A stretch of 21,415 bases of DNA. Origin: a virus. A program made the translations under genes and the position numbers. The stretch covers positions 1-21,415 of the IMG/VR virus record IMGVR_UViG_3300020442_000918; one strand, written 5' to 3'. Every line of letters starts with the position of its first letter. Position 1 is the first letter of the stretch. The notes under the pieces were generated by a model. It worked only from the letters and a program-made list of their open reading frames with translations, had not been told where the DNA came from and searched no databases. Positions 4,738 through 5,940 of this stretch are shown here, in pieces.

Positions 4738-4759
4738 AAAAAAGGGGTCCGAAGACCCC
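4738..4759 (-). terminator. Strong Rho-independent terminator with UUCG tetraloop
   Basis: Minus-strand GGGGTC and GACCCC (4744-4759) form a perfect 6-bp stem closed by TTCG, followed directly by six Ts (4738-4743). It lies 19 bases beyond the stop of the beta-barrel-like gene and closes that unit. The T-tract ends two bases before the next ATG (4736). Confidence 0.93.
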
Positions 4760-4778: not shown

Positions 4779-5156
4779 TCAGAAGCTGTACTTCACGCCT
4801 GCCTTGGTGCCGTAACCACGGTCAACGCTGGCGTCGCCAGAACCAAGGAAGGACACTTCACCGTAGATACCCAGACGCTCAGTAGCAGCGACGGAGAGAC
4901 CTGCCTTACCAGAAGGAACGGTGTCGGCAGTACCGCCGTCAGGAGAGACGACAGAGGCACCTGCTTGGACGTACCAGGCAGCGGTTTCGCCCAGGGGAGC
5001 TTCGTAACCTACGTGAAAATCTGTGGTCGTAGAAGTGTAGTCGGAACCAGTGAACGAGGAGTTAGCTTCCACGTTTACGTAGGGACCTGCCAGGGCAGCA
5101 GACGGAGCAGCAACAGCAGCAGCTGCGGCGAGGGTTGCGATAGCAGTTTTGATCAT
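4779..5156 (-). CDS. Exported small beta-barrel-like outer-membrane protein
   Basis: The 125-residue product has a clear signal peptide (MIKTAIATLAAAAAVAAPSA, with cleavage predicted after AALA near residue 23). The mature part is alternating strands and ends in phenylalanine (AGVKYSF). That terminal aromatic is the usual assembly signal of bacterial outer-membrane barrels. The mature length of about 100 residues would allow only a small barrel. AAGGA lies 7 bases before the ATG. It forms its own unit: a TATAAATA late promoter upstream and a strong terminator downstream. Late expression suggests a change of the host surface, or a virion-associated protein; neither is proven. Composition is richer in A and G than its neighbours, in line with capture of a host gene. 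Confidence 0.85.
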   Translation of the reverse strand: MIKTAIATLAAAAAVAAPSAALAGPYVNVEANSSFTGSDYTSTTTDFHVGYEAPLGETAAWYVQAGASVVSPDGGTADTVPSGKAGLSVAATERLGIYGEVSFLGSGDASVDRGYGTKAGVKYSF

Positions 5157-5189
5157 TGAATTTCCTTTTTACTAGATGGGATAGAGTTC

Positions 5190-5241
5190 AACTGTCACAC
5201 TGTGCCAGTTGTAACATTTATTTATATGACACAGTGTGTCA
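5190..5241. repeat. Pair of near-identical palindromes flanking a late promoter
   Basis: Two 15-bp dyads lie either side of the late promoter box: TGTCACACTGTGCCA at 5193-5207 and TGACACAGTGTGTCA at 5227-5241. The second is a perfect palindrome, and in opposite orientation the two agree at 13 of 15 positions. The first extends to a 21-bp dyad (5190-5210) with one mismatched pair. Centres are 34 bp apart, about three helical turns. They could be operator half-sites for a dimeric regulator, or could pair as a stem in RNA. The second overlaps the stop codon of the upstream gene. Confidence 0.6.
5219..5226 (-). promoter_or_regulatory. T4-type late promoter TATAAATA
   Basis: An exact TATAAATA on the minus strand, 62 bases upstream of the ATG of the beta-barrel-like gene, in a short intergenic gap. 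T4-like phages use this box with a phage sigma factor and clamp for late transcription. Confidence 0.8.
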
Positions 5242-5940
5242 TTCACAGTAGTCCACGACACCATCTTGTACAGATAATGTATCACCGATGCCATATTCAG
5301 CAGGTTGCTTCATGTAGTACATCTGGTGGGTGTCACCGCAGTCCTGAGTAGAAGTGCTTAGTGGACCTGTATATTCTACCACACATGTCTCCGTTTTGGG
5401 AAGCAGGCAGTGGTCGAATGGTTCCCACTCTTCTGTGTATGGGCAGCGTTCAATACCAATAGGCTTGTGACGCAACCAGATGTTGAGGTAGAGAGTGACA
5501 GAGTTAGGTGCTCCGATCATCTCACTGTAAGCATACTTCCCATCGAAGATAGTCAGTCTGCCCTCATCACCATACACATAGGTGAGATCCTTAGGGATGT
5601 CTTGTCCCCAAGTCATGTCAGAGACTACCACGCAACTATCATCAAAGTCAAGCTGTACGATTGCCACTTGATGAGGTGGCACATACCCTTCTGCCAGTTC
5701 GTCCTTGTCAAAGTGGAACCCGTTGTACACGTGTCCGTCTGGAGATTTGTAGTACCAATACTCCACACCCTCAAACCCATACGGAATGTACTTTCTACAG
5801 ATAGCATTGATGTATGCCTCTGTCAGGTTCCTAGGTTCATCCCAAAGACTGTACCAGTAGTTCTCTCTACCTACCTTGTCTACCTGTTGCTTGAGCTGAT
5901 GATTCAACCAAGAAAGATGTACGTTCGTATAAAAATTCAT
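5239..5940 (-). CDS. 2OG-Fe(II) oxygenase-like protein, distal His unclear
   Basis: The 233-residue product has a prolyl-hydroxylase-like core. YNGFHFDKDE carries the HxD iron motif (H76, D78). Strands then lead to GRLTIFDGKYAYSE (127-140), where the family normally has Gly-x-Leu-x-x-Phe followed by the third iron ligand, a histidine. Here that stretch has no histidine; the nearest is H158 (WLRHKP). The C-terminal 70 residues are Cys-rich (CPYTE, DHCLLPKTETC, STQDCGD). The enzyme may be inactive, use another ligand, or be a diverged relative. It begins in an ATGA overlap with the 161-aa oxygenase gene. Substrate unknown. Confidence 0.75.
   Translation of the reverse strand: MNFYTNVHLSWLNHQLKQQVDKVGRENYWYSLWDEPRNLTEAYINAICRKYIPYGFEGVEYWYYKSPDGHVYNGFHFDKDELAEGYVPPHQVAIVQLDFDDSCVVVSDMTWGQDIPKDLTYVYGDEGRLTIFDGKYAYSEMIGAPNSVTLYLNIWLRHKPIGIERCPYTEEWEPFDHCLLPKTETCVVEYTGPLSTSTQDCGDTHQMYYMKQPAEYGIGDTLSVQDGVVDYCE

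Follow-up and report, generated by a model that had tools for sequence, protein, structure and literature searches.

Our understanding of gene timing in the T4-like cyanophages is incomplete, and gp55 with its partners is assumed to suffice for their late promoters. During infection the host RNA is rapidly degraded. To our knowledge, general descriptions of the T4 late promoter do not include sequence-specific dyads at its flanks. Dyads near promoters are known from bacteria: CRP sites have the form TGTGA-N6-TCACA and NtcA sites the form GTA-N8-TAC, and the CIRCE element of the groE operons is an inverted repeat near the transcription start that can serve both as a DNA operator and as an mRNA structure. 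For psbA of the cyanophage S-PM2d, Puxty et al. (2018) describe one motif holding a sigma70 -10 together with a gp55 site, and report that the 5'UTR contains an inverted repeat (PMC5931967). Thus, a composite promoter with an inverted repeat has a precedent. A second phage system is the PeSL (promoter early stem-loop) cassette of T4-like phages, in which a stem-loop linked to a phage promoter stands beside varying genes (PMC4503421).

The locus studied here lies in a window of 21,415 nucleotides of viral DNA (IMG/VR record IMGVR_UViG_3300020442_000918), ahead of a gene for an outer-membrane-protein-like beta barrel (Table 1). In cyanophages such as S-SM2 and Syn1, homologues of this gene carry the annotation DUF680 or T4-GC 241, and the 233-aa ORF upstream of it has no Pfam match. 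The sequence-only reading had proposed that two similar dyads, 34 bp apart between their centers and the first of them longer than the shared core, bracket a T4-type late promoter. The pattern TGNCACANTGTGNCA indeed has two exact matches in the window and no others, one at 5193-5207 and one at 5227-5241, with centers at 5200 and 5234. The two cores are identical at 13 of 15 positions, and the dyad closer to the gene, dyad B, does extend beyond the core. The assignment to a late promoter is supported by an exact TATAAATA that, as expected of a gp55-type late promoter, is intergenic, ahead of the gene and on its strand. On the minus strand, the stop codon of the 233-aa ORF is followed by dyad A, TATAAATA, a gap of 7 nt, dyad B, a short leader and finally the barrel ATG. 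The late box is therefore bracketed in the literal sense, but its flanks are unequal: dyad A abuts its upstream side and overlaps the stop codon of the ORF (5241-5239), while dyad B falls inside the predicted late 5'UTR. No occurrence of TGNCACANTGTGNCA was found in 40 dinucleotide-preserving shuffles of the window. Because the pattern was picked after being noticed, and because perfect palindromes whose arms span 7 bp or more are about twice as frequent in the window as in shuffles (33 against 14 expected), this result is suggestive and not decisive.

Table 1. Features of the barrel-gene locus, in coordinates of the window
Feature	Position	Strand	Description
Terminator-like hairpin with U run	4744-4759	-	intrinsic terminator call, 3' of the barrel gene
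Barrel gene	4779-5156	-	outer-membrane-protein-like beta barrel; PF24653 Phage_OMP, E=6e-48; phrog_417
Leader RNA remnant	5169-5186	-	CTCTATCCCATCTAGTAA; from comparison with 60 relatives
Dyad B	5189-5211	-	21-23 bp, CAACTGGCACAGTGTGACAGTTG = CAACTGGCACA-G-TGTGACAGTTG, one unpaired G/A position
T4-type late box	5219-5226	-	TATAAATA, exact match, intergenic, 62 nt before the barrel ATG
Dyad A	5227-5241	-	TGACACACTGTGTCA; perfect 17-bp palindrome at 5226-5242
Upstream ORF	5239-5940	-	233 aa; weak phrog_23934 match; 99% identical in contig L083

Exact copies of TATAAATA occur three times in the window against 0.31 expected, and one lies within 260 nt before the barrel gene in 90 of the 144 distinct leaders examined. 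We found no sigma70-like promoter at 5190-5260 on the minus strand of the window. Since the promoter region (TCATATAAATA) has no recognizable -35 and no good -10, the promoter of the window looks late-only, and dyad A appears, from its position, to occupy the place of a sigma70 spacer. Many relatives of the barrel gene (L038, L045, L068, L072, L168 and others) have a promoter of composite type, TTGACA-N17-TANTATAAATA, where some letters belong both to the sigma70 -10 and to the late box. With their stem-loops, these relatives resemble S-PM2d psbA; the S-PM2d case differs in that it concerns another gene, its repeat is read as an RNA hairpin, and the window lacks the sigma70 part (PMC5931967).

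Dyad B belongs to an element that recurs in barrel leaders, AACTGKCACA-N(0-21)-TGTGMCAGTT, and shows its inward-facing pair of half-sites beside a Phage_OMP late box. When viral contigs were scanned for CAACTGGCACA-N0-30-TGTGNCAGTTG, 64 stretches were returned, and in the majority a barrel homologue with 33-72% identity follows directly. With all loci pooled, the dyad is present in 59 distinct barrel leaders, a count that is not one of independent cases, as the relatives share ancestry. The loop is 0 nt in 10 of them, 1 nt in 2 (both from the species of the window), 7-9 nt in 43 and 20-21 nt in 4. The dyad stands 0-1 nt upstream of TATAAATA in 32 leaders and 4-32 nt downstream in 14, and 13 of the 59 have no exact TATAAATA; where it stands upstream, it frequently follows a sigma70 promoter. 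Only a minority of barrel genes have the dyad. It is found in 20 of 75 leaders selected by protein homology alone, so the pattern search does not by itself account for its recurrence. The strict form was absent from the first 17 annotated phage genomes, but it is present in two isolates, S-PRM1 and P-TIM68, the latter sharing the 1-nt loop of the window. The expectation that a dyad is conserved among relatives that keep the gene holds for dyad B, and its conservation is not of a kind that fits only RNA pairing; for dyad A, the lack of conservation that the sequence-only reading named as a refutation is what is observed. What does not hold is a conserved pair at fixed spacing, since dyad A was seen only in this species and dyad B changes sides of TATAAATA with a loop of 0 to 21 nt.

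The arms remain near AACTGKCACA across this divergence of the barrel homologues, also in the protein-selected sample, while other hairpins of the same leaders drift through compensatory changes. No compensatory change was seen in the dyad arms among the leaders compared. In 51 of the 59 inward dyads, one half is of the G type and the other of the T type, and the resulting unpaired G/A or T/C position is retained although fully paired versions exist. Since such a combination leaves one stem position unpaired, it is not what selection for RNA pairing would favor.

The same half-site is widespread outside the barrel leaders. AACTGKCACA is present in 16 of 17 cyanophage genomes, where it totals 105 sites and the reversed control 12. 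At early promoters, half-sites form an outward-facing pair, TGTGNCA-N10/11-TGNCACA, just upstream of the -35 and thus upstream of the start of those transcripts. When spacings from 4 to 24 were considered in the fetched phage regions, only 10 and 11 were seen. The distance from the half-site to a recognized -10 is mostly 28-30 nt, with the reservation that 66 of 98 sites have no -10 of the listed types and some are in genes or are far halves. In ACG-2014f, most sites are in early promoters of the form TGTGACA-N10-TGGCACA followed by -35-like and -10 boxes, with the caution that this genome supplies most of the well-resolved outward dyads. Most outward early dyads also combine one G-type and one T-type half. 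At barrel promoters, the distance from a lone half-site to the following TTGAC is 7 nt in 14 of 17 cases. A literature search for TGTGACAG with cyanophage gave no match; the early-promoter element may have been described before, and the accessible text on S-PM2d psbA does not mention AACTGKCACA half-sites (PMC5931967).

Several further observations concern these early promoters. One genome holds 26 AACTGKCACA sites, and the outward arrangement TGTGNCA-N10/11-TGKCACA upstream of a -35 is seen in L224 and L225 (ACG-2014f, 26.5-58.5 kb) and at other phage loci. In L224 (plus strand, near 737), L263, L270 and L278, early promoters are fused to terminator-like hairpins: the loop or the stem of the hairpin contains the -35 box, and a T run stands ahead of the -10, as in GGGGGGTTGGCAAACCCCCTTTTTTGTGCTATAAT. 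A contig with GCGATCGC sites (L164) has three outward TGTGNCA-N9/10-TGTCACA dyads followed by CCCCC and -35-like boxes. These dyads suggest that the early element may reach past the marine T4-like phages.

The half-site enrichment, the spacing at early promoters and the preference for one G-type and one T-type half all favor a putative DNA-binding factor. We suggest that dyad B is a sequence-specific regulatory element read by such a factor, and we give this a probability of about one half. The operator-like character proposed in the sequence-only reading is thus supported by the enrichment, the early-promoter use and the fixed spacings. The suggested likeness to CRP or NtcA sites does not stand: neither TGTGA-N6-TCACA (or TGTG-N8-CACA) nor GTA-N8-TAC is present in 5151-5270, and the half-sites here point inwards, CACA..TGTG. 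The locus has the TGTG and CACA letters of a dyad in common with CRP/FNR and NtcA sites, but its half-sites are reversed. CIRCE is also different, as it has another sequence, a fixed 9-nt spacer and a known repressor, HrcA.

The data show that the element recurs, that its letters are conserved, where it stands, and that early promoters have its half-sites; from these patterns we infer protein binding, the kind of factor involved and the direction of regulation. Two AACTGKCACA half-sites would face each other over the transcription start region of the barrel gene, and a factor made by the phage or the host could recognize each of them. At early promoters, where half-sites are rigidly spaced upstream of the -35, the factor would sit at the position of an activator. 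At the barrel gene, the pair of half-sites by the late box might damp or block initiation, and we propose that the barrel gene would in this way follow the switch from early to late expression. On a more tentative footing, AACTGKCACA may be the site of one factor, new to description, whose outward pairs drive early promoters and whose inward pair gates the late or composite start of the barrel gene. Some observations count against a DNA-level role for dyad B. Gaps of 0, 1, 7-9 and 20-21 nt between half-sites do not suit a rigid dimer and are out of helical register, the half-sites of the barrel leaders are oriented opposite to those of early promoters, and the one-arm changes in S-SM2, L029 and L389, which preserve a G-U pair, would be tolerable for RNA.

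The strongest alternative is that dyad B acts in the RNA, as a stem-loop at the 5' end of the barrel message. It would delay decay of the message, for instance by host RNase E, or adjust translation, and the arm letters would be kept through recent common ancestry or exchange of leaders. The arms are retained while the loop varies from 0 to 21 nt, and the dyad often begins close to the predicted 5' end or right at it, for late and sigma70 promoters alike. S-PM2d psbA also offers a model in its 36-bp inverted repeat, described as a probable 5'UTR hairpin (PMC5931967). However, the missing compensatory changes and the persistent unpaired position count against this account, 32 of the 59 dyads lie upstream of the late box and would be missing from the late mRNA, and the half-sites recur upstream of -35 boxes. 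Moreover, the leader of the window folds no better than shuffled sequences, with z of about -1 to -1.4; about 10-14% of shuffles equal it, and for the whole region 15 of 200 do so. We regard an RNA-level role as less likely than a DNA-level one, and as its main rival. By analogy with CIRCE, DNA and RNA roles can coexist.

RNA structure does have a place in barrel leaders. Relatives without the dyad have another hairpin at most 14 nt after TATAAATA, with G-U pairs and compensatory changes, which speaks for the RNA account. A stem of 7 bp or longer this close to TATAAATA is found in 71% of the dyad-less barrel relatives, compared with 25% of other intergenic TATAAATA and 6% of shuffles. This hairpin, which we call hairpin 1 (L008-L082), is a variable stem-loop followed by a WTRTWACAA box, just after the barrel late box. 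In one sequence family, 4 of its 10 pairs are changed on both sides and many are G-U; this consensus came from a single-family alignment, as a mixed MAFFT alignment gave no pairs because unrelated stems misalign. Hairpin 1 shows that structure right after TATAAATA matters. We considered whether dyad B is itself hairpin 1 and dropped the idea: S-PRM1 and L125/L138/L152 have both in series, so the two are separate. Upstream of TATAAATA, stems that are not of the AACTG type are only mildly enriched (22% against 7% in shuffles).

About 60 distinct barrel leaders (for example L029, L017 and L178) contain a different structure, a leader RNA with two hairpins (GGGACAAGUCGAGUCCC..CAUCUGCGGGUAACCAUUCCGCAAGUAA) and with compensatory changes in 8 of 11 pairs. 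Relatives carry the full form, while the window lacks both hairpins (CATCTAGTAA). Rfam searches found only tRNAs in the window and mainly tRNAs, manA and wcaG in relatives, with no match to a barrel leader in the loci tested.

It is unlikely that the dyads are parts of mobile, PeSL-like cassettes of promoter and stem-loop, with repeats that serve the recombination of modules and no regulator involved. The barrel genes do have different neighbors from phage to phage, and the element is found in either orientation, before the late box in some leaders and after it in others. PeSLs have been reported from T4-like phages, and their presence in S-PM2 has been discussed (PMC4503421). Relatives with a sigma70 promoter, a dyad and a late box in series resemble such cassettes. 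The combination of a sigma70 early promoter and a stem-loop is present in many relatives. The window, however, does not have it: no sigma70 promoter is found at its dyads, its promoter is late and its arms are conserved in sequence, which sets it apart from PeSLs. Recombination alone also leaves the fixed -35 and -10 distances of the early promoters unexplained.

Dyad A has a narrower distribution. Its 15-mer has 30 matches in viral contigs, and only one of these, in L106, has the same context; the others are in unrelated contexts. L106 is a near-identical contig of the same species, the same as L083. No relative beyond the species has the 15-mer in this context, and we have rejected dyad A as a conserved element. 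Its core fits the AACTGKCACA element, but the outer CAAC/GTTG letters are absent, and we do not count dyad A as a member of that element. It looks like an additional copy of the core that is particular to this lineage. It is improbable that dyad A serves the upstream gene as a terminator or as the hairpin at the 3' end of its mRNA, with the likeness to dyad B partly due to chance: this reading accounts for the overlap with the stop codon and the lack of conservation elsewhere, but neither dyad has a U run or is called as an intrinsic terminator (GC-rich stem with U run), whereas the barrel gene's own terminator is called, and the core equals that of dyad B at 13 of 15 positions.

Taken together, the locus has a real, partly conserved element in which dyad B is recurrent and dyad A lineage-specific, and for which we infer the mechanism outlined above. 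An element common to early promoters and to a very widespread barrel gene provides a DNA probe for the missing regulator. If the two share a factor, the early and late programs of these phages would be linked, and operator control would be added to the T4-type late promoter. If the element acts as RNA instead, phage messages with structured leaders, so far exemplified by S-PM2d psbA, would gain a second case, in hosts whose RNA is rapidly broken down upon infection.
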